Shown here: positions 17,328 to 39,568 of the stretch, piece by piece | Position numbering within the stretch: the first letter of the stretch is position 1 | Layout: each line of letters begins with the position of its first letter | From: an uncultured Selenomonadales bacterium | Lineage (GTDB): Bacteria; Bacillota; Negativicutes; Selenomonadales; Selenomonadaceae | Reading direction: 5' to 3' | Assembly (NCBI GenBank): GCA_946411735.1 | Contig: CAMKFB010000013.1 | Coordinates: 1 to 43,557, forward strand | Length of the DNA stretch: 43,557 bases | Program-made: the position numbers and the translations under genes | The notes under the pieces: generated by a model | The model's database searches: none | What the model was told of the DNA's origin: nothing | The model's input: only the letters and a program-made list of their open reading frames with translations

Positions 17328-17378
17328 TGAAAAAATTTTTTCGAGGGAGGGTGGGTGGGGCGAAAAAATTTTTTTCTC
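17328..17378. repeat. Palindrome/G-quadruplex/A-tract element, copy 1
   Basis: On +, the palindrome GAAAAAATTTTTTC is followed by GGGAGGGTGGGTGGGG (17345-17360), four G tracts with single-base loops, and then CGAAAAAATTTTTTT. It sits just downstream of yaaR. The G-rich strand is the template strand of the yaaR-holB-ricT transcription unit, so the transcript would be C-rich here. Two further copies of this layout lie inside hisH and the hotdog gene. Confidence 0.75.
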
Positions 17379-17395
17379 GTCGCCCCCGTCGATTA

Positions 17396-17851
17396 TTACA
17401 TGTAGAGATCAACGAGCATGCCGCGGATCGCATCGTGCGACGCCACTATGTCAAGCTGCTCCGATTGCCCCAGGCGAATTTTTTCCGCCATCTCCTCCAG
17501 CTTGCGATCCACTTTGCGAACCGTCGTATACGCCCGCTGCCGCCCCATCCGATCCCAGCCCGCGCTCGTGTGCAGTTCGTACATCTGCGACACCGCCGCG
17601 CTGATGAAATTTTTGATCAGCGTCCGATATTCCTTGAGCTCGTCAAATGTCGGCGAACGCGACAGCCGCCCCGCCTGCTCGTCGATTTTTCGGAGCATCT
17701 CCTCAAGCTGCTCGTGCGTCGCGCCGTCCGCTTGCTCCTCAAGCAGCTGATCCGCAAACGACGGGTCCTTCGCGCTCACCTTGTGCGTCGTATCGCGAAA
17801 CGTCTCAAACGCCGAGTGCGTCGGCGTCGACGATACCATTTTGACCGGCAT
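17396..17851 (-). CDS. yaaR: YaaR family protein (DUF327)
   Basis: A 151-residue helical protein of unknown function, identified as YaaR by its C-terminal half (KEYRTLIKNFISAAVSQMYE, then KVDRKLEEMAEKI) and by its place upstream of holB and ricT, as in Bacillus. It has no signal peptide or membrane segment. The start ATG at 17851 follows AAAGGTTGTGAT. The promoter is TTGAAC-16 bp-TATAAT on -, overlapping the nif3 promoter on +. Confidence 0.88.
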   Translation of the reverse strand: MPVKMVSSTPTHSAFETFRDTTHKVSAKDPSFADQLLEEQADGATHEQLEEMLRKIDEQAGRLSRSPTFDELKEYRTLIKNFISAAVSQMYELHTSAGWDRMGRQRAYTTVRKVDRKLEEMAEKIRLGQSEQLDIVASHDAIRGMLVDLYM

Positions 17852-17869
17852 ATCATCACAACCTTTTCA

Positions 17870-17918
17870 TTGCAATCAATTTATTCATCGATTATACTGC
17901 AGCCGTTCTAAAGTTCAA
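17870..17918. promoter_or_regulatory. Overlapping divergent promoters for nif3-like gene and yaaR
   Basis: On +: TTGCAA 17870-17875, 17-bp spacer, TATACT 17893-17898, driving the nif3-like gene. On -: TTGAAC (reverse complement at 17913-17918), 16-bp spacer, TATAAT (reverse complement at 17891-17896), driving yaaR-holB-ricT. The two -10 boxes overlap, so polymerase should not be able to occupy both at once. Confidence 0.75.
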
Positions 17919-17935
17919 AATGAGGGGCGACGAAA

Positions 17936-18718
17936 ATGTTGAAAGTACAATCGATTGCCGACGCGCTCAACCGTTGGGCGCCGTCGAAACTGGCCGAGGA
18001 GTGGGACAACGTCGGAGTGCTCGTCGGCGATCCCGCGGCGGAAGTCAAAAAAGTTTTGGTTTGTCTCGACATAGGACTGCCGGCGATCGATCACGCCGTC
18101 GAGATCGGCGCTCAGATGATCGTCTCGCATCACCCGATGATCTTCCGCCCGATCAAAAACGTGCGGCTCGATCTCCCGCTCGGTCGACGGTTGAGAACGC
18201 TGTTGAAGAACGATATCGCCGTCTTCGCCGCGCATACCAATCTTGACTCGGCGGTCGGCGGCGTCAATGACGTGCTCGCCGAAAAGCTCGGACTGGTCGA
18301 CGTCAAGATGCTCGATCGCGAATCGATCGAACCGACGCTCGGACGGATCGGTCGATTGACGGAGGAAATGTCGCTGCGGGATTTCGCCGCCCGCGTCAAA
18401 AGCGCGCTCCGCGCGGATTACGTTCGTTTGGTCGACGCGGGAACCGGCGCAATTAAAAAAGTTGGCATCTGCGGAGGTGCCGGTGCCGACTTCATTCTGA
18501 AAGCAAAATTTTACGGAGCGGACGCGTTCGTGACCGGCGACGTGAAGTATCACGAGGCGCAAGCCGCCGTCGACAACGGCATTCATCTGATCGATGCGGG
18601 ACATTTTGCGACGGAGCGTCCGATTGTTGAGGTGATTGCGCAACGGCTCCGCGCGGAACTGCCAGAGTTGGAGGTGGAGACATTCGAGCGCGAATCCGAT
18701 GTGTTCTCGATAATATGA
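17936..18718 (+). CDS. Nif3-like dinuclear metal centre protein
   Basis: This belongs to the NIF3/YbgI/YqfO family of metal-binding hexamers, often annotated as GTP cyclohydrolase 1 type 2 homologue, whose role is unsettled. Visible signatures are LAEEWDNVGVLVGD near the N-terminus, MIVSHHPMIFRPIKNV (metal-binding His), FAAHTNLDSAVGGVNDVLAE, and the C-terminal DAGHFATERPIVE. At 260 residues it is the short form without the middle domain of YqfO. In Firmicutes it often lies near trmK/rpoD, which is not so here. Its stop TGA (18716-18718) directly touches the stop of the convergent PRC-barrel gene, with no terminator in between. Confidence 0.93.
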   Translation: MLKVQSIADALNRWAPSKLAEEWDNVGVLVGDPAAEVKKVLVCLDIGLPAIDHAVEIGAQMIVSHHPMIFRPIKNVRLDLPLGRRLRTLLKNDIAVFAAHTNLDSAVGGVNDVLAEKLGLVDVKMLDRESIEPTLGRIGRLTEEMSLRDFAARVKSALRADYVRLVDAGTGAIKKVGICGGAGADFILKAKFYGADAFVTGDVKYHEAQAAVDNGIHLIDAGHFATERPIVEVIAQRLRAELPELEVETFERESDVFSII

Positions 18719-20062
18719 TTATTGTATGCTTTGAGCAAGCTCGCCGAGCTTGGTCGCAAGGCGCGCCTTTTGATAAACGGCATCGGTGACCTCCGCGCCC
18801 TCCTCGACGATGACGATGCCGCCGTCGGTTCGAATGGTTTTCGTGGCGTGCTTGCCGATAAACATTGCGCGCTTATTCAGTAACTGTTCGTCGGAGGGTA
18901 CGTTTTTTGCGGCAGGTTTGTTGCGACTCTGCTTTGCCATAGCCGCCGCCAATGCCGCCTTCAAACGTTTTGCCTGTTGAGTTTCATGACTGCCGCCGCT
19001 CGGAGCGGGTTTCGGCTCGGGAATAGGTTCGGGTTTCGTTTTGATAACGGGATCGGGCGTCGGTTCGACAACCGGCTCGGGCATCGACTCGACAACCGGC
19101 TCGGGAATCGGTTCGACAACCGGCTCAGGCTCGGTTTTGACAATCGGCTCGGGCGTCGACTCGACAACGGGCTCGGGCGTCGACTCGACAACGGGCTCGG
19201 GAATCGGCTCGACAACGGGCTCGGGAATCGGCTCGACAACGGGCTCGGGCGTCGGCTCGACAACGGGCTCGGGCGTCGGCTCGACAACGGGCTCGGGCGT
19301 CGGCTCGACAACCGGCTCAGGCTCCATCATCGCCTCAAGTTCGACCGGCGCCGGCTCGGGCTCCGCAGGCAACTCGCTCACCGGCGGCACAATCGGCTCG
19401 GGCTCAACAATCGGCTCGGGAATCGGAGCAGGCTCGGGCTGCTCAAATGAAACGGCGACATCCTCCGAAGGCGGTTGGAAAGCAGGTTCGCTCGGAGGCG
19501 TCGCCGAATCAATTTGAACATCACGAACGTCCTCAACGGCGTCGAATCGCGTCGGGGCGTAGTAATCATCGCGGTCGTCTACAAGTTCAGTTTTTTTTTC
19601 CAACTCCGCGTCGATGACCGTGACCTGCTTGCCGAAAATCGCAATCTGATCGGCGGTGACTTCGATGACCGAACCGTCGGGGGAGGTGATTTCGCACTTC
19701 TCGATGCGCCCGTCGTCGCCGATATAAATCTCGGTGACCGTGCCCTGGATTATGCCGTTCTTGGTAATCGCCTTCGTGCCGATGACGCGAATATTCTCGT
19801 CGAGAAGGTTTTCGTAGTCGCCTGCATCCTCGAGCTTGAGAATGTTCTCGCTGTGCGTGATGGTGACGGCGTCGGAGCCGATGGCGATGACGGACTCGTA
19901 AGGAATGAGCTTGACGCCGCGGTACCAGTCGTCATCCTCGATGGTGATCGCCGCGACCAGCCCGTTCTTGGTGTCGATGAGCAGGGATTTGCTCAATCCG
20001 AGCTCGCGCCCTTCGGTGATGCTGATGACCGGCAAACCCAAAATTTCAACGCTTTTCTTCAT
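18719..20062 (-). CDS. PRC-barrel protein with long Pro-Glu repeat region
   Basis: The first roughly 170 residues contain two PRC-barrel-like units (VEILGLPVISITEGRELG; later RVIGTKAITKNGIIQGTVTE). These are small beta barrels common in Negativicute and photosynthetic proteins. A Pro/Glu-rich region follows, with 8-residue units PEPVVEPT/I/S encoded by a 24-bp tandem repeat (about 19040-19330), then a basic, Ala-rich C-terminal segment (RLKAALAAAMAKQSRNK). There is no signal peptide. ATG 20062 is chosen because GGAGGAATG lies just upstream; the frame is open to 20149 without a better start. It is last in a three-gene operon. Function unknown. Confidence 0.8.
   Translation of the reverse strand: MKKSVEILGLPVISITEGRELGLSKSLLIDTKNGLVAAITIEDDDWYRGVKLIPYESVIAIGSDAVTITHSENILKLEDAGDYENLLDENIRVIGTKAITKNGIIQGTVTEIYIGDDGRIEKCEITSPDGSVIEVTADQIAIFGKQVTVIDAELEKKTELVDDRDDYYAPTRFDAVEDVRDVQIDSATPPSEPAFQPPSEDVAVSFEQPEPAPIPEPIVEPEPIVPPVSELPAEPEPAPVELEAMMEPEPVVEPTPEPVVEPTPEPVVEPTPEPVVEPIPEPVVEPIPEPVVESTPEPVVESTPEPIVKTEPEPVVEPIPEPVVESMPEPVVEPTPDPVIKTKPEPIPEPKPAPSGGSHETQQAKRLKAALAAAMAKQSRNKPAAKNVPSDEQLLNKRAMFIGKHATKTIRTDGGIVIVEEGAEVTDAVYQKARLATKLGELAQSIQ
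19040..19330. repeat. 24-bp tandem repeat inside the PRC-barrel gene
   Basis: About twelve units of the type GGCTCGACAACGGGCTCGGG plus four more bases, encoding the octapeptide PEPVVEPT and variants. Neighbouring units near 19170-19310 are nearly identical, which suggests recent slippage; copy number could vary between strains. Confidence 0.85.
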
Positions 20063-20149
20063 GAGGCATTCCTCCAAATAATAGCCGGTGCTCAACGTGG
20101 AGCATCCGAAAATCGGCATTAGTCTAACAAAATACTGCTTTGAAGTCAA

Positions 20150-20863
20150 TCACACGGCGGAAAAAACCGATTGCTTTTTGAACTCGGCGTCGATCTCCGC
20201 GCGGATCGGTCGGGAGATTTTCGAGAAGGGAGTCGAAAGCGCGCGATGTTTTAAAAGAACGGATTGGACGACGCGAAGGTAGGCAAGATTCTCCCGGCAC
20301 TCCTTTCGAGCGGATTCGCTGCGCACGACCGCGGGCAATTTGAGCGCATCCTCGCAAACCTTGATCGCCTTGATATACGCCGCCTGCTCTTTATATAAGG
20401 AGCTGAGGTCGACCACGATGAAGGGCGCGTAATCGTCCTCGCGATAGCGCTCGAGCGCCTTCTGATAGGAGTAGATGGCCAGCTTGAAATTGCCGCCCTG
20501 CTTGGCGGCGTAGGCGAACTCTAGAATTTCATCGAGCGAATGAAGATGCTCCTCGACGGCGCTCAAATCCTCCTCGGTGATGCCGCTCTCGACCGCCGGC
20601 TTCGGTTTAATCGGCTCGGGCTTATCGTCGTCGGCGGTTTTTTTATCGGGCTTGGATTTGTCGATGGCGGCGGAGATTTTTTCGTTGGCAACGGCAAGAT
20701 GAGCCGCCTTGCGCTCGACGACGGTCGGACGCTTGGGCTTGACGATCGGCTCGCTCGAGATGGAAATTTTTTGTTCGATGGCAGAGGGTTTGCGCTCGAC
20801 GGTCGAAATTTTTATGTCCTCGACTTTCTTATCGGCGGGCGGATTTTTTTTTTCTGTCGACAA
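20150..20863 (-). CDS. TPR-like protein with charged N-terminal linker
   Basis: A 237-residue soluble protein. Residues 1-95 are Lys/Glu/Pro-rich and low complexity. The C-terminal half has paired helices typical of tetratricopeptide repeats (FAYAAKQGGNFKLAIYSYQK and YKEQAAYIKAIKVCEDALKL), suggesting a protein-binding scaffold. Its start overlaps the end of the upstream membrane-protein gene by 35 bp, indicating translational coupling. Specific function is not recognisable. Confidence 0.75.
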   Translation of the reverse strand: MSTEKKNPPADKKVEDIKISTVERKPSAIEQKISISSEPIVKPKRPTVVERKAAHLAVANEKISAAIDKSKPDKKTADDDKPEPIKPKPAVESGITEEDLSAVEEHLHSLDEILEFAYAAKQGGNFKLAIYSYQKALERYREDDYAPFIVVDLSSLYKEQAAYIKAIKVCEDALKLPAVVRSESARKECRENLAYLRVVQSVLLKHRALSTPFSKISRPIRAEIDAEFKKQSVFSAV

Positions 20864-21323
20864 TGCTCTGAATGATCGATTGAGCTTGCGCTTGATCGAA
20901 AGCGGGGCGCTCGCTCAACTTTTGCGCCTTGAGCTCGGCAACGCGGCGCTTGACCACATCCGCCTCCCGCGACGGCGTTCTTCTGATGTGCTCGACGATC
21001 GGCGCCTCTTCTTTCGGCTCGACGTTGACTTCGACATCGGGCGCTTGCTCGGCGACTACGGGCTTGGGCTTCGCCCGATAGACGTTGAGCACGGTCGACA
21101 GCAGCGCCGCGAAAACGATCATTGCGGCGAGCTTGACGAAAAAAATTTTGTCGACGAACGCCGAAGTCCGAAGCGCCGCCAGGCTGATCCCGATCGACGA
21201 CAGCGCGCAAAGTGCCAGCGCCTTGTATTTCAATTGGAAACCGAAGTGCGCGGCGAGCGCATGCAGCAGCACGATGCTCAAGATCATGACGCTCGGCACG
21301 ATGAGGAAGAAAGCCAAAAACAT
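20829..21323 (-). CDS. Small membrane protein, first gene of TPR/PRC operon
   Basis: About 164 residues. Three hydrophobic helices (MFLAFFLIVPSVMILSIVLL; ALALCALSSIGISLAAL; FVKLAAMIVFAALLSTVLNV) are followed by an acidic then basic cytoplasmic tail (PVVAEQAPDVEVNVEPKEE). ATG 21323 and TTG 21335 are both possible starts. GGAGGT lies only about two or three bases before the ATG, so the start is uncertain. No family recognised; its neighbours suggest a membrane-anchored complex with the TPR and PRC-barrel proteins (inference). Confidence 0.65.
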   Translation of the reverse strand: MFLAFFLIVPSVMILSIVLLHALAAHFGFQLKYKALALCALSSIGISLAALRTSAFVDKIFFVKLAAMIVFAALLSTVLNVYRAKPKPVVAEQAPDVEVNVEPKEEAPIVEHIRRTPSREADVVKRRVAELKAQKLSERPAFDQAQAQSIIQSIVDRKKKSARR

Positions 21324-21537
21324 TACCTCCAACAAAAATCATGCGGAAAATTTTTCGACGCGCCGATAAAAATTCCTGCCGTTGACGCCCGCGACGCCGA
21401 CCGATCAAAAATTGTAAAAAAATTTTTTGATCGAAGAAGGGAATTATGAGGCGATGAAGAATAAAGCAGGCAAGGAAACGCCGACAGGCATTCTGAACAT
21501 CAATCACAGTTCATTCAAAGATAGGAGAGTGTTGTTA

Positions 21538-21807
21538 ATGTCAGCAGAAGCAACCGCCGTCATCGAAAACAAAACCGGTATTCATGCACGTCCGGCATCG
21601 GTCTTCGTCCAGAAGGCGAGCTCGTTCAAGTCCAAAATCCAGATCAAGGCAAAAGGCAAGAGCGTCGATGCGAAGAGCATCCTCATGATCATGAGCATGG
21701 GACTCGTGAAGGGCACGGAAGTCACTCTCGTTGCCGACGGTCCCGACGAGGCTCAGGCAGTTCAGGAGCTCAAGGCGCTCATCGACAGCAAGTTCGGCGA
21801 GGAATAA
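21538..21807 (+). CDS. ptsH: PTS phosphocarrier protein HPr
   Basis: HPr carries phosphate from Enzyme I to sugar-specific EIIA proteins of the phosphotransferase system. The phosphorylated histidine is in TGIHARPAS, and the regulatory serine region KSVDAKSILMIMSMG resembles the Ser46 site used by HPr kinase in Firmicutes. The 89-residue length is right. ATG 21538 is chosen because AGGAGAG (21523-21529) lies eight bases upstream; an in-frame extension back to 21427 exists but is unlikely. An inverted repeat GATCAAAAA/TTTTTTGATC lies upstream. ptsI follows after about 150 bp. Confidence 0.95.
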   Translation: MSAEATAVIENKTGIHARPASVFVQKASSFKSKIQIKAKGKSVDAKSILMIMSMGLVKGTEVTLVADGPDEAQAVQELKALIDSKFGEE

Positions 21808-21901
21808 TTCGCTGCCTCTGACGGCTCGGGCTCATCGACTCTTCGATAGTCCGTCGTGCATCAACATTCGGCGAAAATATTATTGTCAACAATCTGATCG
21901 G

Positions 21902-21936
21902 AGGGAGGGGGCGTTTTTTCGGCGCCGCCTCCCTTT
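21902..21936 (+). promoter_or_regulatory. Hairpin between ptsH and ptsI
   Basis: GGGAGGGGGCG pairs imperfectly with CGCCGCCTCCC around a T-rich loop, followed by only three T. It could act as a weak terminator or a processing hairpin that sets the HPr to Enzyme I ratio. The ptsI ribosome-binding site GGAGG follows at 21947-21951. Confidence 0.55.
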
Positions 21937-21959
21937 GCATATCAACGGAGGAATTTTAC

Positions 21960-25784: not shown

Positions 25785-26365
25785 GGACGGCTCAAATTGA
25801 GCGCAAAACCAATGAGACGGCGGTAAAAATTTTTTTGGAGCTTGACGGCGATGGCAAGGCGAATATCGACACGGGGATCGGCTTTTTCGATCACATGCTG
25901 ACGTTGTTCGCCGCGCATGGTCGATTCGATCTCGACGTCAAATGCGACGGCGATCTTCACGTTGACGGTCATCACTCGGTCGAGGATATCGGCATCACGC
26001 TCGGGGCGGCGATCAAGGAAGCGCTCGGCGACAAGCGCGGCATCAATCGCTACGGCACATTTTATCTGCCGATGGATGAGTCACTTGCGTTCGTCTCGCT
26101 CGACATAAGCGGGCGCCCATTCCTCGTATGTGATCTCGGCGAATTGACTCCGACGGTCGGCGCCTTCGACACTCAACTCGTCGAGGAATTTCTCCGCGCG
26201 GTGGCGTTCAATGCCGGCATCACTCTCCACGTCAAGGTTCTCTACGGCTCCAACACTCATCACAAGATCGAGGCGGTGTTCAAAGCGCTCGGGCATGCGT
26301 TGCGACACGCCGTCGAGAGCGATCCAAGGATGAATGATATTCCGTCGACGAAGGGAATGTTGTGA
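25781..26365 (+). CDS. hisB: Imidazoleglycerol-phosphate dehydratase
   Basis: Dehydrates imidazole glycerol phosphate to imidazole acetol phosphate. The metal-binding histidine motifs [17 protein letters not shown] and [19 protein letters not shown] are all present. The 194-residue monofunctional form lacks the phosphatase domain of enteric HisB. ATG 25781 follows AAAGGAGGCGACGGC and overlaps the hisC stop; its own stop overlaps the next start. Confidence 0.97.
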
Positions 26366-27609
26366 TGAGTACGGATAAATATCCGATCCGGTATTTTTGC
26401 GGTTCGGGCGCGCAGATTTATCCGAAGGACGATTTCCTGAAGAAAATACGTTTCTTTCTTGAGCATCACAAAATGCCGCCGACGATCTTCGGCGAGACGG
26501 GCATCGACGGCGTGTTGCTCGATTTCAATTACGGGCTCCGATTGCAGATTCCCGAGGGCAATTGGTACGTGCGCATCGTCGATGCCGAGAGCGAATATAT
26601 ATTTTTAGACGAGGACGTCTCGAGCGTTACGCTGATCTCCGTCGAAAAGTTTTTCATCGAGTGGGAGATTGCAATTTGGTCGGATGGCGAGCCCGTTTTT
26701 TATCATCGTTTCGATCCGCGCGGTCAACACGTTCACTTTGATTTTAATCGGGCGATCGGCGACAACATTGCGCTGTTGCCGTACGTCGAGGCGTTTCGTC
26801 AAAAATTCGATTGCGAGGTTTCGTGTTCGGTCATTCGCCCCCTGCAATGTCTCGCCCGAAATTTTTTCCCGAATGTAACGTTGACATCTGAGGCGCCGGA
26901 GGATTCCTACGCTACATTCTTCATGCAAGCGCCGATCAACATGTCTTTCATCGCAATGGAGGACGGTTTGCACATTCCGTTGTTGCACTTGGGAAATTCG
27001 ATCCTCCGCCGCATCGACCAACCGCCGAAAGTAATTTATCGACCGACCAAGCCGCGCTCGATCGAAGAGCCGTATGTGTGCATCGGAGTTCAGGCGTCGA
27101 CGCCGACGAAGGGGTGGCTCAATCCCGACGGTTGGGATCGAGTTGTCGAGCATTTAAAGTCGCTCGGTTACAGAGTTCTTTGCATCGATCGCGACAGGGA
27201 ATGCAAGCAATTCGGTTTGACGGTCAAGATGCCGCGCGAAGCGGAAGATTTTTCGGGCAAATACGATCTTCTCGATCGAGTTAATCAGTTGGCGTATGCG
27301 GATTTTTTTATCGGCGTCTCGAGCTCGCTGTCGTGGTTGGCGTGGTCGGTCGATATTCCTGTCGTGTTAATCAGCGGGCTTACCGCCCGTTGGTACGAGT
27401 TCGACACGCCTTATCGAGTGTATAATCCGCTGGTCTGTCACGGCTGTTTCAATGAATTTTGGTGGGTAAAAGACGAGGGCGAGCGTTGCACTATGTTTAA
27501 GCATACCGACCGTGCTTTCGAGTGCTCGAAAAATATTTCCGCGCAACAAGTGATTGACGTTGTCGATCGCCTTGTCAGCGACATCAGACAATCCGGAGGC
27601 GCTTTATGA
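26365..27609 (+). CDS. Autotransporter-type O-heptosyltransferase homologue 1 (BAHT family)
   Basis: Resembles TibC/AAH-type bacterial autotransporter heptosyltransferases, cytoplasmic enzymes that add heptose from ADP-heptose to Ser/Thr of surface autotransporters. The N-terminal region has FGETGIDGVLLDFNYGLRLQ and IEWEIAIWSDGEP. The likely catalytic segment AIGDNIALLPYVE matches the GD motif of related GT9 enzymes. A C-terminal nucleotide-binding half shows GYRVLCIDRD and YADFFIGVSS. A four-cysteine metal finger is present (CHGC, then C, then ECSK, from about residue 357). 414 residues. Start ATG 26365 overlaps the hisB stop. No autotransporter substrate gene lies in the window. Confidence 0.85.
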   Translation: MSTDKYPIRYFCGSGAQIYPKDDFLKKIRFFLEHHKMPPTIFGETGIDGVLLDFNYGLRLQIPEGNWYVRIVDAESEYIFLDEDVSSVTLISVEKFFIEWEIAIWSDGEPVFYHRFDPRGQHVHFDFNRAIGDNIALLPYVEAFRQKFDCEVSCSVIRPLQCLARNFFPNVTLTSEAPEDSYATFFMQAPINMSFIAMEDGLHIPLLHLGNSILRRIDQPPKVIYRPTKPRSIEEPYVCIGVQASTPTKGWLNPDGWDRVVEHLKSLGYRVLCIDRDRECKQFGLTVKMPREAEDFSGKYDLLDRVNQLAYADFFIGVSSSLSWLAWSVDIPVVLISGLTARWYEFDTPYRVYNPLVCHGCFNEFWWVKDEGERCTMFKHTDRAFECSKNISAQQVIDVVDRLVSDIRQSGGAL

Positions 27610-28781
27610 AATATCCGATACGATACATCTTCGGTTCGAGAGCGCAGACTTATCCGAAAGAGCCGTACATGCGCGAGCTTGAAACTTTCAACGATCAAAT
27701 TTCGATGCCGCAATCGATCTTCGGCGAGACGGGCATCGATGGGCTGTTGCTCGATTTCAATTGCGGGCTCCGATTGCAGATTCCCGAGGGCAATTGGCAT
27801 GTGCGCATCGTCGATTTTGAAAGCAAATATATTTTTTTCGATGAGGATATTTCGTGTGCAACGCTGATCTCCGCCGAAAAGTATTTTATTGATTGGGAGA
27901 TTGCGATTTGGTCGGACGGCGAGCCGGTCTTTTATCATCTTTTCGATCCGCGCGGTCAACGCGTCCACTTTCGATTCGATCGAGAGAGCGACGTCAGCAT
28001 TGCGACGTTGCCTTATGTCGAGCAGTTTCGACGGCAGTTCGAGTGTGAAGTTTCGTGTTCGATTGACGAGCCCATGCAATGTCTCGTTCGAGAGTATTTC
28101 CCGCATGTGACGTTGACTTCGACGGTGCCGGACGATTCCTACGCCGCGTTTTATATTCGAGCCGCGAGCAATTTTCCGTTCCTCACGCAGGAGAATGTGA
28201 TGCGCATTCATCTGTTGCAATTGGGAAATTCGATCCTCCGCCGCATCGACCAACCGCCGAAAGTAATTTATCGACCGACCAAGCCGCGCTCGATCGAAGA
28301 ACCGTATGTGTGCATCGGAGTGCAGACGTCTTCGCCCGCCACAAGTTGGCTCAATGCCGACGGTTGCACTCAAGTCGTCGAGCATCTTAAATCGCTCGGC
28401 TACAGGGTCGAAAATGTGAGCGGCGAGCATTCTTTATCGGATCAGATCAATCGGCTGGCGTATGCGGATTTTTTCATCGGAGTCTCGAGCGGGCTGTCGT
28501 GGCTGGCGCGGGCGGTCGATATCCCCGTCGTTTTGATCAGCGGCATCACTGCCCGTTGGTACGAGTTCGACACGCCTTATCGAGTGTATAATCCGCTGGT
28601 CTGTCACGGCTGCTTCAATGAATATTACAGAGCTTACGGGGAGCCCGTTAAGTGTTTTCTGTTTAAGCGGACAGATCGCGCGTTCGAGTGCTCGAAAAAC
28701 ATTTCCGCGCGGCAGGTGATCTCTGCCGTCGATCGTTTGATTGCCGATCACAATTTGGGGGCTCAACGTAATGAAACGTAG
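27606..28781 (+). CDS. BAHT-family heptosyltransferase homologue 2, divergent active site
   Basis: A close tandem paralogue of the preceding gene (391 residues), with the same GETGIDG, IDWEIAIWSDGEP and complete four-cysteine finger (CHGC, C, ECSK). It differs where catalysis is expected: GDNIA of copies 1 and 3 is SDVSIA-like here (RESDVSIATLPYVE), DGW is DGC, and about 22 residues after GYRV, including CIDRD, are missing. It may be a pseudoenzyme or an assembly partner (inference). ATG 27606 follows CCGGAGGCG and overlaps the previous stop (ATGA). Two stretches are almost identical in DNA to copy 1. Confidence 0.82.
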   Translation: MKYPIRYIFGSRAQTYPKEPYMRELETFNDQISMPQSIFGETGIDGLLLDFNCGLRLQIPEGNWHVRIVDFESKYIFFDEDISCATLISAEKYFIDWEIAIWSDGEPVFYHLFDPRGQRVHFRFDRESDVSIATLPYVEQFRRQFECEVSCSIDEPMQCLVREYFPHVTLTSTVPDDSYAAFYIRAASNFPFLTQENVMRIHLLQLGNSILRRIDQPPKVIYRPTKPRSIEEPYVCIGVQTSSPATSWLNADGCTQVVEHLKSLGYRVENVSGEHSLSDQINRLAYADFFIGVSSGLSWLARAVDIPVVLISGITARWYEFDTPYRVYNPLVCHGCFNEYYRAYGEPVKCFLFKRTDRAFECSKNISARQVISAVDRLIADHNLGAQRNET

Positions 28782-29997
28782 ATATTTTCATGGTTCGTCG
28801 CTCGACATTCTTCCGCCTCCGCTGCTCGAGAGCGGGCTGAAATTTTTCGAGGAGCGCATTGCTTTCAAGGATAAAATTACGGGCGAGACGGGCATCGACG
28901 GACTGATGATCGATTTCAACGACGGACTCCGGCTGCAGGTTCCGAAGGGCGATTGGCATGTGCGGATATCGGACGGCGACATGATTTTTTTCGATGAGGA
29001 CGCGTCGGAGGTGATGTTGATCTCAATGGAAAAATTTTTTGTCGAGTGGGAGATCGCCATTTGGCTCGACGGGGAACCGGTGTTTTATCACCGCTTCGAT
29101 CCGCGCGGACAGACGGTGCATTTCGTGTTCAGGCAGGCAATGGGCGATAACATAGCGCTGTTTCCTTATGTCGAGCAGTTTCGACGGACGTTCGATTGTC
29201 GAGCGACGTGCACGGTGCCGCCGCACATGCGCGAGCTCGTCGAAAAATATTTTCCGCGCCTGGAGCTGACGGACGAGTTGCCCGAGGACAGTTATGCGTG
29301 CTTTTACATGGTGGCGTTGAGCAATATGCCGTTTGCGGCGACGCACGACTTCAGGACGGTTGCGCTCGAGCTGACGGGCAAAACGATTTTAAATTCGCCG
29401 CTGATCCGCCGCCCGTCGAAAGTGATCTACGCTCCGACCAAGCCGCGTTCGATCGAGCAGAAGTATGTGTGCATCGCGGTGCAGGCTTCGGGGACGCATA
29501 AATGTTGGTTGGCGCCGGACGGTTGGAATCGCGTCGTCGAGTATCTTAAATCGCTCGGATATCGAGTGCTGTGCATTGATCGCGATCGGCAGTGTTCGGG
29601 GAACGGATTGACGGTCGAGATGCCGGCGGGCGCGGAGGATTTTACGGGCAATATTCCTTTGCTCGAGCGGATCAATGTTCTGGCGTACGCGGATTTTTTC
29701 ATCGGGCTGTCGAGCGGATTGGCGTGGTTGGCGTGGGCGGTCGATGTGCCCGTCGTGATGATCAGCGGCGTCACCGAGCCGTGGTATGAGTTCGATACGC
29801 CTTATCGCGTACAAAATCCGATGGTGTGTCACGGCTGCTTTAATGATATGCGCGTCGACTTCAGCCATGTTGCGGCGTGCGTGAGTTATGAGGATGCGGA
29901 TCGAAAATACGAGTGCTCGAAAAGAATTTCCGCGCGGAGCGTGATCGAGGCGATTGAGCGATTGATGGTCGACAACAATCTTAACGGGGGGAATTAA
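28771..29997 (+). CDS. BAHT-family heptosyltransferase homologue 3
   Basis: Third tandem paralogue, 408 residues, more diverged than copies 1 and 2. It retains the full set: TGETGIDGLMIDF, VEWEIAIWLDGEP, AMGDNIALFPYVEQF, GYRVLCIDRDRQC, ADFFIGLSSGLAWLAW, and the four-cysteine finger (VCHGC, AAC, YECSK). It is therefore probably active. ATG 28771 lies 11 bp inside the end of copy 2, with GGGGG upstream. hisH starts right after its stop. Confidence 0.84.
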   Translation: MKRRYFHGSSLDILPPPLLESGLKFFEERIAFKDKITGETGIDGLMIDFNDGLRLQVPKGDWHVRISDGDMIFFDEDASEVMLISMEKFFVEWEIAIWLDGEPVFYHRFDPRGQTVHFVFRQAMGDNIALFPYVEQFRRTFDCRATCTVPPHMRELVEKYFPRLELTDELPEDSYACFYMVALSNMPFAATHDFRTVALELTGKTILNSPLIRRPSKVIYAPTKPRSIEQKYVCIAVQASGTHKCWLAPDGWNRVVEYLKSLGYRVLCIDRDRQCSGNGLTVEMPAGAEDFTGNIPLLERINVLAYADFFIGLSSGLAWLAWAVDVPVVMISGVTEPWYEFDTPYRVQNPMVCHGCFNDMRVDFSHVAACVSYEDADRKYECSKRISARSVIEAIERLMVDNNLNGGN

Positions 29998-29998
29998 T

Positions 29999-30646
29999 TT
30001 GATAGCGGTGATTGATTACGGTGTGGGGAATTTGTTCAGCGTGTCGAAGGCGGTGGAGGCTTCGGGCGCGACGGTGGAGGTGACGGGCGATCCCGATCGA
30101 ATCCGCGCGGCGGAGAAATTGATCCTGCCGGGCGTTGGAGCGTTCGGCGATTGCATGAAGAATTTGCGAGCGGCGGGGCTCGACGGCGTGATCCTCGAGG
30201 AGATCGGGCGCGGCACGCCGCTGATGGGCATATGCGTGGGGCTGCAGATTTTATTCGAGGGCAGCGAAGAGTCGCCGAATGTGGCGGGGCTGGGCGTGTT
30301 CAAAGGCGTTGTGAGAAAAATCCGCGCGGAGGGCTTGAAAGTGCCGCACATGGGTTGGAACTCAATCGCCGTTGCCGCCGACAATCCGTCCGCCGAAAAA
30401 TATTTTATCCCGCCCGCCCGCCCTCAACAGTTTTCAACTGTTAACGATTCGCGCTCGTATTTTTATTTTGTGCACAGTTATCATGCGGTGCCGGAGGATC
30501 GAACGCTGATCGCGGCGACGACCGATTACGGCGAGAAATTGACGGCGGCGGTTGCGCGTGATAATATTTTTGCGGTGCAATTTCATCCCGAGAAGTCCGG
30601 CGACGTCGGGCTGCAACTTCTAAAGAATTTTGTTGGGAGGGCTTAA
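29999..30646 (+). CDS. hisH: Imidazole glycerol phosphate synthase, glutaminase subunit
   Basis: HisH supplies ammonia to HisF. The class I glutaminase nucleophile is in GICVGLQ and the catalytic His in FHPEKSGDVG. The N-terminus IAVIDYGVGNLFSVSKA is standard. The start is TTG 29999, after GGGGGG. Compared with typical HisH, about 14 extra residues (KYFIPPARPQQFSTVN) lie between MGWN and YFYFVHSYHA; the DNA here is a C-rich/hairpin element shared with the hotdog gene. The reading frame is kept, so the protein is probably functional. Confidence 0.95.
   Translation: MIAVIDYGVGNLFSVSKAVEASGATVEVTGDPDRIRAAEKLILPGVGAFGDCMKNLRAAGLDGVILEEIGRGTPLMGICVGLQILFEGSEESPNVAGLGVFKGVVRKIRAEGLKVPHMGWNSIAVAADNPSAEKYFIPPARPQQFSTVNDSRSYFYFVHSYHAVPEDRTLIAATTDYGEKLTAAVARDNIFAVQFHPEKSGDVGLQLLKNFVGRA
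30401..30442 (-). repeat. Hairpin/G-quadruplex/A-tract element, copy 2, inside hisH
   Basis: On -, the hairpin AACAGTT-GAA-AACTGTT (30426-30442) is followed by GGGCGGGCGGGCGGG (30409-30423) and then ATAAAATA. On + it reads TTTTATCCCGCCCGCCCG and so on. Four G tracts with one-base loops; the G-rich strand is the template strand of hisH. Confidence 0.75.
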
Positions 30647-33061: not shown

Positions 33062-34168
33062 GTGGACGCTTACAAAAAAATTTTGCTGATCAACCTGATG
33101 CACTTGGGCGATCTGATGTTGGTGACGCCGGTGCTGCGGACGTTGCGGGCGAATTTCCCGACGGCGGAGATTGATCTGTTGGCGGATAAGAAACTGGCCG
33201 ATCTGGTCGAGCACAACCGTTGGATCGATCGGTGTCTGCTGATCGACAAGAAGGGCGTGGACGATCATCTGCCGACGTTCCTCAAATTCATAATGCGGCT
33301 CCGCGCGGAGCGATTCGATCTGGTGATCAATCTGCACCGCAACGAGCGGGCGTCGGCGCTGGCGGCGTGGAGCGGCGCGAAAAAAATAGTCGGCTACTCC
33401 AAGCCGTTTTTTTCTATGTGGTTCGACGAGGTGCTGCCGAATTTGAAGGCGGTGAAGCACCAAATACATTCGCATTTCGACGTGCTGCGGGAGGCGGTCG
33501 GGATCGATCGGATCGACGACGGCGGTCTTGAGATGTGGATCGAGCCGACAGTCGAGCGGGAGATGTCGGCGCTGATCGAAAAGGAGTTCGGCTCGACGAA
33601 GGTAATCGCGTTCAATATCGGAGCGAGCTGGCTGACGAAGCGTTGGCTCGACGGATATTTCGCCGAGTGCGCGGATCGGTTGATCGAGGCGGGATATGGG
33701 ATTGCCTTCCTTGGCGGACCGATGGATGTTGAGATCGTCGCTCGATGCGTTGAGAAGATGCGACATAAGGACAGCGCGCGGCTGAAAATCTTTACGGGGC
33801 GGCTGACGTTGGCGCAAGTGGCGGGGCTGTTGGATCAATGCGTCCTATTCTTGACGACGGACTCGGGACCGATGCATATCGGAGTTGCGCGGAACATTCC
33901 GATCGTCACGATGTTCGGGGCCTCGCCGGTGCCGGGCTTTTATCCCTACGATGCGAAGGACGTGCTGATCAAGACGCCGGAGCCTTGTCATCCGTGCGGC
34001 AAGCATGAATGTCCGCGCTCGGGCGAAGAAAATTTGGCGTGCATGAAAAATATTCCGGTCGATGTGGTGATGAAGTATGTGCAGGAGCTGTTGACGCAGT
34101 ACGGTCAAGCGGCGAAGGATATTCCGCGCGTCTACGGTCAATATCAATGCCGCGTGATCGAGCTTTGA
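33062..34168 (+). CDS. Glycosyltransferase family 9 (LPS heptosyltransferase-like)
   Basis: A GT9 enzyme of the WaaC/WaaF type, which transfers heptose from ADP-heptose to lipopolysaccharide core at the inner membrane face. Signatures are ILLINLMHLGDLMLVTPVLR (acceptor domain GD motif), AFNIGASWLTKRW, FTGRLTLAQVAGLLD and TTDSGPMHIGVA, plus the C-terminal Cys cluster PCHPCGKHECP. 368 residues from GTG 33062, which follows the hisF stop by one base. Its placement after three BAHT genes suggests shared use of ADP-heptose (inference). Confidence 0.9.
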   Translation: MDAYKKILLINLMHLGDLMLVTPVLRTLRANFPTAEIDLLADKKLADLVEHNRWIDRCLLIDKKGVDDHLPTFLKFIMRLRAERFDLVINLHRNERASALAAWSGAKKIVGYSKPFFSMWFDEVLPNLKAVKHQIHSHFDVLREAVGIDRIDDGGLEMWIEPTVEREMSALIEKEFGSTKVIAFNIGASWLTKRWLDGYFAECADRLIEAGYGIAFLGGPMDVEIVARCVEKMRHKDSARLKIFTGRLTLAQVAGLLDQCVLFLTTDSGPMHIGVARNIPIVTMFGASPVPGFYPYDAKDVLIKTPEPCHPCGKHECPRSGEENLACMKNIPVDVVMKYVQELLTQYGQAAKDIPRVYGQYQCRVIEL

Positions 34169-34184
34169 TTGAGAGGCAAACACA

Positions 34185-37100
34185 ATGACCGAACAGGAAA
34201 AAATTTTTTTCGAAGCGATATACAACGACCGTAAAGACTCCGTCATTGCCATGTCGAAAAGACATTTGAGAGGGATGTGGACGAGCATCGTTGAGAAGTA
34301 CACCGGTCAAGCGCATTTTATTTGCTGCTTCAAAATGCCGACGACGCCGGCGCCACTCACGCCCGCTTTGTTCTCAACGACAACGAGCTGATTTTTGCTC
34401 ACAACGGCACTCGCCATTTCTCCGTCACCGATCCCAACGACGAGGAGCTCGACACGGTCAACAAGACGCTCGGCGACGTCAACGCCATTACCTCCGTCGC
34501 CAACTCCAACAAGACCGAGAGCACCATCGGCAAGTTCGGCGTCGGTTTCAAAGCCGTCTTTCAATACACGCGCACGCCGCACATCTACGATGTCAACTTC
34601 AGTTTCAAGATCGAGCACTACATCATGCCGAAGCGTCTCGAGGGAGATCATCCCGAGCGCGGTTCGATGGAAACGCTCTTCGTTTTTCCGTTCGACAATC
34701 CCGCAGTCGAGCCCGAGCGCGCCGAGCAGGAGATTGCCGATAAACTTGCCGCGCTCACTTTGCCGACGCTGTTTTTGAAAAATCTCCAACGCATTGAGTA
34801 TGACCACGGCAGCGGCAACGGTCGCTACACTAAGACGATTGAGACCAAATTGAACACCGGCTCAGTCACTATCGAGCGAATCAGAATGTGGCAGTATCAT
34901 TTCGGCGTTGACGGAAAATCCGCGCCGCCTCAAAGTTTTTGGATGTTCACCAAGACCGAGCGCATCGATGGCTACGACACTGACCTCTCGATCGGATTTG
35001 CCGTCGACGATAAAAATAAACTCGCGCCGATGACTTATAACGCCTTTTGTTTTTTCCCTACGAAGGAGAAGACGGGGCTCAACTTTATAATCCACGCGCC
35101 GTTTCTTTTGACCGACAGTCGCGAAGGCATTCGAGCGAACTCGGATTTCAATCGGCTGCTGATCAAAAAGTTGGCGGAGCTATCGGCGACGGCGTTAATC
35201 CATCTCAAAGGCGCGGGGCTCATCGATGACGATATCTTGAGGATTATCTCGTGCGATCCGAGCACGTTCACTGCCCTCGATGATCGCGATCAAACATCCT
35301 TCCTTCCGTTCTATGACGAGATCAAGAAAACTTTTCGGACGGAGGAAATTCTCCCGACTGCCGAACCGAAAAAATATGTCTCATCGGAGAATGCGTATTG
35401 GGCGACCACCGCCAAACTCAGTCAGCTGTTCGACAACTCTCAGTTGAAAATGTTGACAGGCAATCCGAAGGCGATGTGGGCGTTTACGTCGGTGAGCGAG
35501 CGACACGTCGGAGGAGGCGCGATCAATCGCTACGTCAAAGACCTCGTCACGAAAAGTTTTGAGGATGAAAATTTATTGCCGCTGATCACTGCAGAATTTA
35601 TTGAGCGACAGAAAATCAGTTGGCTGCATGATTTCTACTTGTATTTGACGGAGACGGCGCCGCGCATGAAATTGACTCGGACGCTGCCGATCTTTTTGAA
35701 TCAAGATCGAAAGGCAACGGCGGCGTTCGATGCCAACGGTCGAGCGACACTGTTTATGCCGTTGGAGGGCGTGGACGGTTATGCTACGGTGTATCGCGAG
35801 CTGCTAAAGGATTAGGAGATCAAACAATGTCTCGAGAAGTTCGGGATCAAGGCGCCGTCGCTCAAAGATGAGATTTACAATAAAATCCTGCCGATGTATC
35901 GATCCTCCAATGAAATTGACCCGCATCCGCACATTAGGACTTTCCTGCGATATTATTTCGAGGCGTCGATGTTTGAACGTGAGCGTCTCGTCGAAGATTT
36001 ACGACATTATCAATTTGTGTTGGTCAAGACATTGGACGGCAAAGTTCTTCGGTGTTCGCCCGACAAGGCGTACTTCTATTCGGCGTGGCTTGCGCAATAC
36101 TTTCAAGGCGTGCCCAAAATTTATTTCGTTTACCCCGAGGATTATGAGCTGTTCATTCACACGCAACATCGAAAGAACTGCAAAGGATTCCCGTCGACGG
36201 ACATTGCGGCGTTGCGTCAAACGCCGTGGCTGCTCGACACACAAGGGCGGTTTTGTTCGCCGTTGATGCTCGACACATCAACGCTGTCAAAAGAGTACGA
36301 TCGCAAGTCCGAGGACTCCGAGCGACTGATCAAATTTCTCAAGATCAGCGACGTGTCGAATTTGACGAAGGAGCAGTTGAGAAAAATTCGGCTTGCCGAG
36401 CAGATCGAACAAAAATATTCTCCCGACGAGATCAAAGAACTCATCGGTCGCAAAGAAAAACAATCGCCGCCGTCGCCGCCCGCGCCTTCAACGCCGTCGA
36501 CGACATCACCGTCGCAATCAACGCCGCCGCCCTCAACACCATCGTTCCGCGCGGAGCCGAAAACAGTCGAAAATAAGTCGGAGGATCCGGCTAAAGAGAT
36601 CGAGAATCTCACGAAAAAATATGAGGAGGAATTGCAGAAACTCAATCAGAAGGCGGAGTTGATAGCGCGCGCGGAGGCGGCGCAAAAGTATTCTTACGAG
36701 TGGTTCACGACATTGCTCGAGCTCGAAAAGTTCAACTCCGATGACGCCTCCGACAGTCGAAAGATCGAAATCAGTTTCAGCCGCGTTGAGCGCATGCCCG
36801 ACACTCGACGGACGCTCATCCTCAAATACCCGAGCCGATATATCCCGCGCTCGATCGAGGAGCTGACCGATATTCCGCTGAAACTTTCAAGGCGCGGCGA
36901 AAAAATTGCCGAGCCGATCATCGACGCAATCAGCATCAAATCATTCACGCTGCGCGTCAAGATCAAGGACATCGACAAACTTGCCGGCGTCGATCTGTCG
37001 AGCATCGACGAGGCGTACATCAAAGCCGACAGCCCCGTTTTTCTTCTCGACGCGCTCATCAAATCATTCAAAGCTCTCGACTTCGAGCCGACGTTCGATA

Positions 37101-38539
37101 TGAAATCCAACCTGCCGTCGAATATAAAATTCATATTCGGTCCTCCGGGCACCGGCAAGACCACTTACCTTGCGCGCGAAATTCTGATCCCGCTGATGCG
37201 TGGCATGAATTCCGCGCGAATTTTGGTGCTGACGCCGACCAACAAAGCCGCCGATGTGCTCGTCAGTCGAATAATATCGCTGCTCGACGCCGTCAACGAT
37301 CGATCATACGTCGATTGGCTGATCCGCTTCGTCTTCACCAACGACGAGACGATCGAAGAGCGCGGCGTCCTGCGCGATCGAACGTTTAACATCACGCGGC
37401 TCGCGCGGAGCATCACCGTCACGACCGTAGCCCGCTTCCCCTACGATTATTTCATTTCGGGTGATAAGCGGCTTCCCCTTCAAGATATCGATTGGAATTA
37501 CATCGTGATCGATGAGGCGTCGATGATTGCGCTCGCCGATATCATTCTTCCGCTGTACAAAAAAACGCCGACGCAATTCATCATCGCCGGCGACCCATTC
37601 CAAATCGAGCCGATCACGAAGGTCGAGCAGTGGAAGGACGAAAATATTTATTCGACGGTCGGGCTGTCGTCGTTCCAAAATCCGACAACGGAGCCGCACG
37701 ATTATCCCGTCAAGCTGTTGACGACGCAATATCGGAGCGTGCCGACGGTCGGCGAGATTTTCAGTCGATTCGCGTATGACGGCGTACTCGAGCATCACCG
37801 CTCGACGGGTTCTCAGCGACGGCTCCACCTTGTGTTGCCGTTTCGAACGCTCAATCTGATCAAATTCCCCGTCAGCAAATACGAGAGCATCTATCGACCG
37901 AAGCGGCTGCAAAGCGGGTCGCCGTACCAAATTTACTCGGCGCTGTTCACATTCGAGCTCGTCAAATATTTGGGGCGGCTGATCGCCGAAAGGCACTCGG
38001 GCGAAAAATTTTCGATCGGAATCATCTCGCCGTACCGCGCGGAGGCTGATTTGATCAACAAACTGACGGCGTCGATGAAACTGCCGTCGAGCATCGAAAT
38101 ACAGGTCGGCACGACTCACGGTTTTCAAGGCGACGAGTGCGACATCATTTTTGTGGTGCTCAATTCGCCGCCGTCGATTCAAAACAATGACAACATGTTT
38201 CTGAACAAGCTCAACATCATCAACGTGGCGATCAGTCGGGCGCGGGATTATCTGTTCGTGCTGATGCCTGACGATCAAACGGAGAATATTGAGCGGCTGC
38301 GATCGATCAAACGGCTCGAACAGCTGATCCGATTGAGCGGCGAATGTTACGAGACAACGTCGACCGAGCTGGAGCAAATAATTTTCGGGTCGACGACGTT
38401 CATAGAGGACAATGCGTTTTCGACGGCGCATCAAAATGTTAATATTTACGGTTCGATCGAGCGGCGCTACGAGATAAGGAGCGAGGACGCCGCTGTCGAT
38501 ATTCAACTGCATGAGTTTACTTCGGCAGCGCGCGGTTGA
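34185..38539 (+). pseudogene. Sacsin/Hsp90-type ATPase plus SF1 helicase, broken by a frameshift and an in-frame stop
   Basis: The frame from ATG 34185 gives an N-terminus ending IVEKYTGQAHFI; the next frame, from about 34322, continues LLQNADDAGATHARFVL. Bacterial homologues have HFIYELLQNADDA, so four bases (ATGA of TATGAG) seem deleted at 34323/34324. The second frame runs through a GHKL ATPase domain (IFAHNGTRHF, IGKFGVGFKAVFQYT) to an in-frame TAG at 35813-35815. Protein-like sequence then continues in the same frame (EIKQCLEKFGIKAPSLKDEI) into an SF1 helicase: GPPGTGKTTYLA, VIDEASM, AGDPFQIE, TQYRSVP, GTTHGFQGDECD, NVAISRAR. A Pro/Ser linker lies near 36460-36560. The intact protein would have about 1450 residues. 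Confidence 0.85.
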
Positions 38540-39038
38540 GTTTAACGCCGAGCCACGCCGCCGCGCACGCCTTCATCACATCGCCCGGGATGAACGGCAG
38601 CACCGCCATTACAAGCGCTTGGCTCAACGAAACTTCGCTGACGACCATCATCGAGATCACGCCGCCGACGTATGTGATCGGCACCGCGATGAGCACGTCC
38701 GCGATCGCGTAGCGCTTGAAATTCGGCTCCGCGCCCTTGACCGCGCTCAACAGCGGGAACGCCGCCATCCATGCAAAATAAAATCCGCCCGTCGGACCGA
38801 GCAACTTCGCCAAGCCCTGTTGCCCCGCGAAGACCGGTATGCCCACCGCGCCGATTAAGATATAAGTCACCACGACGATGAGCGTTTGCTTCGGCGGCAG
38901 CACGAACGCCGCCAGGCTGAGCGTCAGTGTCAGCGCCGTCACGTAGCCGGGAGTGAACGGCAGCGGGAACGAGATGTATGCGGCGACGCAACAGAGCGCC
39001 ACGCACAGCGCGATTTTCGTCAATTGTCGAGTATCCAA
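38517..39038 (-). CDS. bioY: Biotin transporter substrate-binding component BioY
   Basis: BioY is the membrane S-component that captures biotin, alone or with an ECF energy-coupling module. The protein has 173 residues, six hydrophobic helices and the family motif GIPVFAGQQGLAKLLGPTGG followed by FYFAW. ATG 39038 lies 19 bp inside the end of the upstream hotdog gene, so the two are coupled. Its 3' end overlaps the convergent helicase gene by 23 bp. No ECF ATPase genes are in the window. Confidence 0.94.
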   Translation of the reverse strand: MDTRQLTKIALCVALCCVAAYISFPLPFTPGYVTALTLTLSLAAFVLPPKQTLIVVVTYILIGAVGIPVFAGQQGLAKLLGPTGGFYFAWMAAFPLLSAVKGAEPNFKRYAIADVLIAVPITYVGGVISMMVVSEVSLSQALVMAVLPFIPGDVMKACAAAWLGVKLNRALPK

Positions 39039-39568
39039 CCTTCAATCTTCCTTTCGTCGGCGTCGACGTAAAACTGCTCGCCGTCGAACGTCAAATACAA
39101 TGCTTCGTCAGTTGCCGTGAAATGTTTGAAACGCAGGCGTATTTTTTTGCGCTCAATCAAGCGTCGATCGTTCAGCAGCGCCTCGACGATCAAAAAGCCC
39201 GGCACGATCGGATGCGCGCCTTGGTGGATTGTGTTATCGTCGTCGGTCTCGCGAATGAATGAGGCAACCTCCTCCCTCGAAAATTTTCTCCAATAATCTC
39301 CGCGCGGAGCGCTGACGGCATCGACATTGGAGCTGTCGCCCCTTAGGGTTTTAAGAGCTTTGCCCTTATGGGGTGGGCGGGCGGGATAAAAAAGTTTTAC
39401 GGTCAATCGCAGTCCCGCCCCCGACGTTTCGACGATCGCCAGATTTTTTTTCGCGCTCAAAATCTTTAACGCCGCGCCGCCGCCCGATCGCTCGATCACC
39501 GCCTCTGCCATCACGAAGCCGACGAATTGTTTCAGCGCCGATAATTTTCTTGCGAGCCTACGAATCAT
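39020..39568 (-). CDS. MaoC/FabZ-like hotdog-fold protein
   Basis: A 182-residue protein whose C-terminal half carries RETDDDNTIHQGAHPIVPGF then LIVEALL. D-x-N-x-x-H plus PIVPG is the active-site pattern of MaoC-type enoyl hydratases/dehydratases. The start ATG 39568 (MIRRLARKLSAL) follows GAGGTGAT; the frame is open further upstream without a good start. The middle (FYPARPPHKGKALKTLRG) is encoded by a C-rich/hairpin element also found in hisH, and by a palindrome copy at 39299-39308. It forms an operon with bioY and is divergent from an acyl-adenylating enzyme, suggesting work on an acyl chain, possibly in biotin or fatty-acid supply (inference). Confidence 0.75.
   Translation of the reverse strand: MIRRLARKLSALKQFVGFVMAEAVIERSGGGAALKILSAKKNLAIVETSGAGLRLTVKLFYPARPPHKGKALKTLRGDSSNVDAVSAPRGDYWRKFSREEVASFIRETDDDNTIHQGAHPIVPGFLIVEALLNDRRLIERKKIRLRFKHFTATDEALYLTFDGEQFYVDADERKIEGWILDN
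39339..39391 (+). repeat. Hairpin/G-quadruplex/A-tract element, copy 3, inside hotdog gene
   Basis: On +, CCCCTTAGGG (39339-39348) and CCCTTATGGGG (39363-39373) form an imperfect hairpin overlapping GGGGTGGGCGGGCGGG (39370-39385), followed by ATAAAAAA. The G-rich strand is again the template strand of the host gene. Confidence 0.75.

Follow-up and report, generated by a model that had tools for sequence, protein, structure and literature searches.

A dispersed hairpin and G-quadruplex motif in two sister species of Selenomonadaceae: candidate end of a miniature mobile element

Three copies of the element in the window

The DNA analysed, referred to below as the window, is a 43,557-nt stretch from an uncultured Selenomonadales bacterium of the family Selenomonadaceae (assembly GCA_946411735.1, contig CAMKFB010000013.1, positions 1 to 43,557, forward strand). 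It carries three copies of a short element made up of a palindrome or hairpin, four GGG runs separated by single bases (a G-quadruplex motif, the quadruplex being known here as a sequence pattern) and an A-rich tract. An initial annotation, made from the sequence alone, had recognised the three motifs; their coordinates and strands, the palindrome preceding each one and the A-rich tract following it were all confirmed. Copy 1 (GGGAGGGTGGGTGGGG, 17345..17360, plus strand) lies between two A/T palindromes on the same strand, GAAAAAATTTTTTC on its 5′ side (17329..17342) and GAAAAAATTTTTTTC on its 3′ side (17362..17376), and belongs to a second class of copies in which such palindromes flank the G runs on both sides. 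It sits in an intergenic mosaic of 690 nt (16708..17397), the place of which is taken in the sister genome by 12 nt. Copy 2 (GGGCGGGCGGGCGGG, 30409..30423, minus strand) lies inside hisH (29999..30646, plus strand), the product of which was supported as a class-I glutamine amidotransferase (PF00117), and its hairpin (AACAGTT-GAA-AACTGTT, 30426..30442, minus strand) has a perfect 7-bp stem located 2 nt from the G runs. Copy 3 (GGGGTGGGCGGGCGGG, 39370..39385, plus strand) is preceded by a hairpin with a 7-bp stem containing one A.C mismatch (TAAGAGC-TTT-GCCCTTA, 39352..39368, plus strand), and lies in an open reading frame (ORF) on the minus strand (39020..39664); no Pfam match was found for this ORF, so that the earlier label ‘hotdog’ was not confirmed.

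Copies 2 and 3 have TTTTATCCCGCCCGCCC in common on the other strand, read in different frames (IPPARP versus YPARPP) in two ORFs that are both longer here than in the sister species. The G-rich strand is the template strand of the host gene for both, as had been proposed for all three copies; for copy 1, which is intergenic according to the gene calls, the transcription unit had been presumed. Dinucleotide shuffles of the window predicted 0.12 motifs (one mismatch allowed), and three were reached in only 1 of 100 shuffles.

Copy number, lineage distribution and anatomy

The genome to which the window belongs (G000; 2.42 Mb in 135 contigs, 93% complete) was searched for exact matches to GGGHGGGHGGGHGGG, a pattern which itself fixes the four GGG runs and the one-base loops. 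This returned 111 copies, the three of the window among them, distributed over the two strands (52 versus 59). Among the 66 genomes of the genus, the only other carrier was a sister genome (G053; 91% complete) with 29 copies; the remaining 64 had none. This sister was also the nearest of 60 genus genomes when HisH sequences were compared (83% identity, against 72% for the next genome). Among named records, HisH came closest to assemblies of Selenomonadaceae, Veillonellaceae and Selenomonadales (58-63% identity), one of them from roe deer rumen, which points to a host within Selenomonadaceae that may come from a gut. At the order level (189 genomes), 185 had no copy and two genomes besides the two carriers had one copy each, while in a phylum-wide sample of 398 genomes, G000 included, the highest count among the other 397 was eight. 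The proposal that the element is dispersed was thus borne out in both genomes. Since many contigs of the two carriers end at motifs (counting by eye, a contig end lies within 300 nt of 9 of 100 copies in G000 and of 10 of 29 in the sister), the true copy numbers are probably higher.

Anatomy and position were examined for 100 of the 111 copies of G000 and for all 29 of the sister. The 0.6 Mb of G000 read for this purpose consisted of stretches picked for containing the motif plus two 20-kb control stretches (contigs C9 and C18). An order-3 Markov model (3 replicates) of this DNA produced ∼0.33 four-run arrays per replicate, while 100 were present; the excess was much smaller for three-run arrays (12, 5 expected) and two-run arrays (317, 226 expected). 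With four runs and one-base loops dictated by the pattern itself, the information lies in what it leaves free: arrays stop short of a fifth run, and forms with longer loops or one mismatch are scarce. A fifth G run, on which the pattern makes no demand, was present in none of the 100 arrays. Only 38 one-mismatch places were found genome-wide (149 minus the 111 exact ones), some of them poly-G or chance matches, and in the 0.6 Mb read just three arrays with longer loops did not overlap a perfect copy, six others carrying G in a loop. Loop bases varied, with T, C and A occurring 54, 42 and 4 times in loop 1, 46, 52 and 2 times in loop 2, and 31, 69 and 0 times in loop 3. The G positions thus stay constant and the loop positions do not, as a compact quadruplex would require. 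The period is four bases and five or more runs never occur, which differs from heptamer repeats with a variable number of units such as those of Xanthomonas and Nostoc. Microsatellite slippage was disfavoured as the origin of the arrays because none has five or more runs.

A perfect stem of at least 6 bp just 5′ of the first G (within 6 nt of it, the limit of the search) was found in 67 of the 98 readable copies of G000; at random positions the figure was ∼1. Such an adjacent stem accompanied 56 of 85 four-run arrays, 6 of 23 three-run arrays, 5 of 270 two-run arrays and 65 of 9752 single GGG runs, and several of the three-run (4 of 6) and single-run stem matches were in fact four-run arrays split by the pattern used. 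The presence of the hairpin together with the G runs is therefore frequent. When the 129 copies from both species were taken together, 82 had a perfect stem, 11 had one mismatch (G.T in five of them), 31 had none and 5 were cut by contig ends. The loops of the 54 hairpins not belonging to the A/T class were strongly biased: 30 were of type GNA, 13 GNNA and 3 CTTG (46 of 54), on 41 distinct stem strings. Among background hairpins of the same DNA, both strands counted, GNA accounted for 11 of 270 triloops, and GNNA and CNNG for 10 and 6, respectively, of 222 tetraloops (27 of 492 together). The CNNG class is reportedly known from DNA tetraloop work by Nakano and Bevilacqua. In 18 copies of one geometry drawn from both species, 45 of the 126 cells formed by the seven base pairs had both partners altered, none had a single partner altered and none was unpaired, although the last two counts are not independent because the rows were chosen for perfect stems; the covariation score for these copies was 0.93, compared to 0.28 in shuffles. 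GNA and GNNA loops yield very stable DNA mini-hairpins (PMC4686876, in the part of that source drawn on here), and only one of the 13 GNNA loops (GCAA) was of the RNA-type GNRA form, which together would favour single-stranded DNA over RNA as the form in which the hairpin acts.

Sites in the sister species and position relative to genes

The comparison between sisters covered 0.79 Mb of G053, in which the orthologous place was found for 23 of the 100 copies of G000; 16 of these were judged. At 14 of the 16 the G array was absent from the sister, including hisH, the ORF at 39020-39664 and the segment containing copy 1. Of the other two loci, one has three G runs in the corresponding position in the sister, and one has a quadruplex motif that lies in the same gap but faces its other gene. 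Where the sister lacks the element, hairpin and G runs are missing together. The converse was also seen: the sister carries copies at TrpA (locus L241) and at L247, while G000 has none at either. The element has therefore occupied new sites since the two species separated, and sites without it exist in each. The clearest unit is that at C38:8897 (labels with C denote contig and position, those with L loci, in either genome), where a stretch of 75 nt, one end of which carries a C array and the opposite end four G runs, separates a stop codon from a start codon; in the sister the two codons overlap and the stretch is represented by 1 nt. Outward-facing G arrays at both ends, candidates for terminal inverted repeats, were seen in a minority of units, examples being C38:8897, C10:12831 and L248 of the sister. 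At some sites the A-rich tract belongs to the inserted DNA; at C55:1966 it was there beforehand. Three sites were common to both species, one of them (C16:7717, shared site G) being among the seven orthologous loci outside the 16 judged; at these three, all 36 G positions were kept while 7 of the 9 loop bases differed, and at one of them the stem was altered at two pairs, on both sides each time. Such shared sites reflect either strong selection by the host or repeated insertion at the same spot.

Gene positions were obtained with a simple codon-usage caller, which is rough and called 90% of the DNA as coding. It placed 95 of the 100 copies in intergenic regions, copy 3 wrongly among them because its ORF had been split; it also counted as in-gene a copy at a start site (C14:25202). 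After correction, 5 of the 100 copies were identified as lying in genes, all five with the G strand as template. This figure is a lower bound, since open frames of at least 120 aa span 43 of the 100 copies on either strand, most of them presumably being shadow frames of a GC-rich genome. In the sister, a scan alone revealed open frames at 8 of the 29 copies, TrpA being the one gene identified. The initial view of a small element that inserts into coding DNA thus stands with respect to dispersal and to absence from most judged sister sites, while coding sites look exceptional (at least 5 of 100). Likewise, the template orientation of the G strand holds for the identified in-gene copies and not as a rule, since among the 94 copies for which a gene was called on the 3′ side (the misplaced copy 3 included) the G strand was sense in 37 and antisense in 57.

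Intergenic copies often lie close to gene edges. A called gene edge lay within 30 nt of the 3′ side of the G runs in 51 of 94 cases, and within 30 nt of the 5′ side in 4 of 87. Of the 37 sense-facing copies, 20 were located 17-30 nt before a called start codon, and 27 of the 57 antisense-facing ones 1-10 nt after a called stop codon. Divergent gaps, again as called, made up 3 of the 78 intergenic regions of at least 60 bp that bear the element, versus 50 of the 133 that do not. Replication-strand preference was weak: in stretches of clear skew, the G-rich strand carried the G strand of 29 of the 75 copies. A consensus scan found two terminator-like sites around copy 1 (0.6 expected, sd 1.0), one of them, with a T tail, just 5′ of the A/T palindrome.

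The element was found inserted in frame in several unrelated protein-coding genes, namely hisH, the ORF at 39020-39664, engB, carB and trpA of the sister. HisH has 16 residues more than its sister counterpart (net 48 nt, within an approximate zone at 30388..30446), and the HisH of seven further genus genomes also lacked the element residues, three of them having a shorter extension at that place; the added residues are therefore not ordinary conserved sequence. The ORF hosting copy 3 shows a net gain of 11 residues over the part aligned with the sister. EngB is 47 residues longer than the Bacillus subtilis EngB of solved structure and CarB ∼59 longer than the Escherichia coli CarB of solved structure, while TrpA of the sister exceeds that of G000 by 20 residues and a solved structure by ∼27. 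An RTX-type ORF, host of a sixth copy, has an element peptide at its end. The G strand was the template in all six in-gene copies examined, and the peptide PPARP or PPTHP recurred in five of them. HisH of G000 and TrpA of the sister share the same hairpin and the peptide PQQFSTVN. Central enzymes (HisH, EngB, CarB and TrpA) thus carry in-frame peptides derived from the element.

Other repeats were seen in the same DNA. A tandem array of 39-nt units (window 16785-17353) falls mostly within the intergenic segment of 690 nt. A second dispersed repeat, palindromic and ∼70 bp long (GGGCGCCGCCGACGCTCCCACCC ... GCGTCGGCGGCGCCC), adjoins many copies of the element (window 16725-17397, and loci of G000 such as L058 and L048); the 0.6 Mb read contained 35 strict half matches, and 34 of the 100 copies had one within 600 nt. 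Another palindrome, CTCCGCGCGGAG, occurs at ∼39296 of the window and at loci of either species, scattered through intergenic DNA and with copies in genes as well. Long poly-G tracts were noted in G000 at C32:15250-15311 and at the start of C43 (L078), as was a CCAG tetranucleotide repeat, possibly a phase-variable tract, downstream of a copy near position 24850 of C1 (L032). Elsewhere in the window, 24-nt tandem repeats lie within an ORF with a PRC-barrel domain (18976-19359), and three tandem paralogues of ∼400 aa occupy the region just upstream of hisH (26362-29997), the first of them matching glycosyltransferase family 9 and TibC models.

Interpretation and comparison with known systems

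The structural constancy of the array, its restriction to one lineage and the insertion-type differences between sisters are best explained if the motif is the conserved end of a miniature element that is dispersed and, in the genomes searched, abundant only in the two sister species. That this is a clade-specific mobile palindromic element, resembling those of the repetitive extragenic palindromic (REP) type and the Rickettsia palindromic elements, and ending in a hairpin and a quadruplex motif, we consider probable, though well short of settled. The proposed unit would span ∼40 to 100 nt and comprise, in most copies, a hairpin of 6-8 bp, often with a GNA or GNNA loop, followed after a few nucleotides by four GGG runs with one-base loops and A/T-rich DNA, some units having a further G array, facing outward, at the opposite end. 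Hairpin and quadruplex would form in transiently single-stranded DNA, where their structure and not their sequence would be recognised, whether by an enzyme or in the course of copying linked to replication; either of these would move the element. Insertions would be tolerated at the very margins of genes and, seldom, in divergent gaps; within genes they would persist if they keep the reading frame and have the G strand as template, an orientation that would yield no G-quadruplex in the coding mRNA. A narrower version, that the family bears a composite signal (a tight single-stranded DNA hairpin plus a one-base-loop quadruplex) read by its shape by an enzyme outside the families tested, is put forward tentatively.

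Several observations weigh against mobility. Profiles for Y1_Tnp, RVT_1 and DDE_Tnp_1 had no match in either carrier, other transposase families not having been searched, and repeats of at least 250 bp (85% identity) numbered only three in the 0.6 Mb read, measuring 263-372 bp. Target duplication gave single suggestive cases only, 239 of 2000 permutations being as good as what was observed in 18 units, which is not significant. A recognisable partner end was present in only a minority of units, a count confounded by a repeat designated R1. A clear hairpin was absent from 22 of 98 readable copies of G000 and 9 of 26 of the sister, beyond the 11 with one mismatch, and the covarying stems had been preselected for perfect pairing. 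DNA folding z-scores for four examples (−1.8, −2.0, +1.0 and −2.0) were not strong. Finally, the three shared sites, with every G kept and most loops changed, fit selection by the host as well as they fit independent insertion.

Three kinds of engine were rejected individually. A REP system driven by a RAYT transposase was discarded as PF01797 had no matches in the two carriers (93% and 91% complete); this family was present in 7 of the 66 genus genomes, none of which has the motif. A retroelement origin was discarded as PF00078 (RVT_1) had no match in G000 or the sister, and an IS4/IS5-type origin as PF01609 (DDE_Tnp_1) had none in either carrier (10 genomes searched). A known RNA family was likewise set aside, as Rfam yielded only a tRNA in the four sources searched. 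It is because these three engine searches were negative and target duplication was not established that mobility is held to be no more than probable, and that the strongest competitor keeps an appreciable share.

According to that competitor, which we judge rather unlikely, the element is punctuation maintained by the host, a boundary of transcription or translation kept by selection: a roadblock for copies that follow a stop codon with their G strand as template, or an mRNA hairpin and quadruplex before a ribosome-binding site. The tight spacing of antisense-facing copies past stops and of sense-facing ones before starts, the rarity of divergent gaps, the terminator-like sites around copy 1 and the retention of G runs despite changed loops at shared sites all agree with it. 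However, both orientations are common, copies occur inside hisH, engB, carB and trpA, and the absence of the motif from the other 64 genomes of the genus argues against a shared essential role. By inspection, moreover, the hairpin is followed by G runs and not by a T tract, so that it is itself no standard terminator on the G strand, and a single one of the 13 GNNA loops is of RNA type. A mobile element and punctuation kept by the host can both be true, at different sites.

It is improbable that the copies are mutational by-products, with G runs generated by repeated slippage and palindromes by strand switching at stalled forks, with no transposition-like step. Perfect palindromes beside a replication-stalling motif would be the expected trace of strand switching, and the palindromes are indeed diverse. 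Slippage, however, should vary the number of runs, which never reaches five; hairpin and G runs are missing together from sister sites lacking the element; and HisH of G000 shares its hairpin and the peptide PQQFSTVN with TrpA of the sister. Least probable of all, by a small step, is that the GGGN period is a duplex-level site for protein binding or insertion: conservation of the G runs does not by itself distinguish binding from folding, but four runs without a fifth and one-base loops of C, T or A match what a compact quadruplex needs and would be atypical of a duplex site.

Among the systems compared, the nearest published relatives found for the proposed mobile element are REP-type palindromes, Rickettsia palindromic elements, the quadruplex repeats of Xanthomonas and Nostoc, and recurrent archaeal motifs. 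REP, BIME and REPIN sequences are short hairpins with compensatory changes, present in more than 100 copies, mostly intergenic and in some cases arranged as outward-facing pairs, and are associated with RAYT transposases. The element described here has in common with them short covarying hairpins, a copy number above 100, some outward-facing pairs and a mostly intergenic location (∼95 of 100 copies according to the rough caller); unlike them, it lacks a RAYT match in its carriers and has the four-run G end added.

Rickettsia palindromic elements are ∼150 bp long, and nearly half of them lie in ORFs, as described in the part drawn on here of a review on miniature inverted-repeat transposable elements (PMC10969869). 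Compared by that description, and as the initial annotation had suggested, they resemble the present element in being palindromic, in inserting in frame into unrelated genes and in leaving a recurring peptide (here PPARP or PPTHP), while the units are shorter here and at least 5 of 100 copies lie in genes. The word ‘quadruplex’ is absent from the text of that review.

The repeats of Xanthomonas and Nostoc (GGGNATC and GGGGA(C/T)T) are heptamers present in 2 to 26 units, for which the authors generally saw no association with mobile elements (Rehm 2015, PMC4692102, in the sections of that paper considered here). The same sections indicate that they share with the present element a dispersed distribution, an intergenic bias, a preference for four units, rarity between divergent genes and the proximity of one particular side to its neighbouring gene, whatever the orientation of the latter. 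There, however, the 5′ side is the nearer, whereas here it is the 3′ side, and the present element further differs in its GGGN unit, one-base loops, lack of a fifth run, attached hairpin and evidence from the sister of insertion, also into genes. The recurrent motifs of Methanomicrobiaceae (Chashchina 2021, PMC8044849, again as far as the portion used here indicates) are likewise many similar intergenic quadruplex motifs near the starts and ends of genes within one clade, but in these the G runs are themselves paired with a C-rich tract on the 3′ side of the motif, while in the present case a separate hairpin lies 5′ and the G runs are left free.

Among the matches listed in a search of open-licence full texts, no report combined insertion with a hairpin and a motif of four runs and one-base loops, and no paper in such texts dealt with G-quadruplexes together with Selenomonadales. 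The quadruplex motifs of bacterial genomes might owe their presence to selection, to mobility or to accident, a question that is still open. G000 and its sister offer an expansion that can be counted, in which some sites are unoccupied, loops vary and the G runs stay nearly constant, so that selection for the fold, insertion and effects on genes are testable site by site. Set beside the four systems above, the element appears to represent a new variety of very small mobile element, one based on unusual DNA structures.

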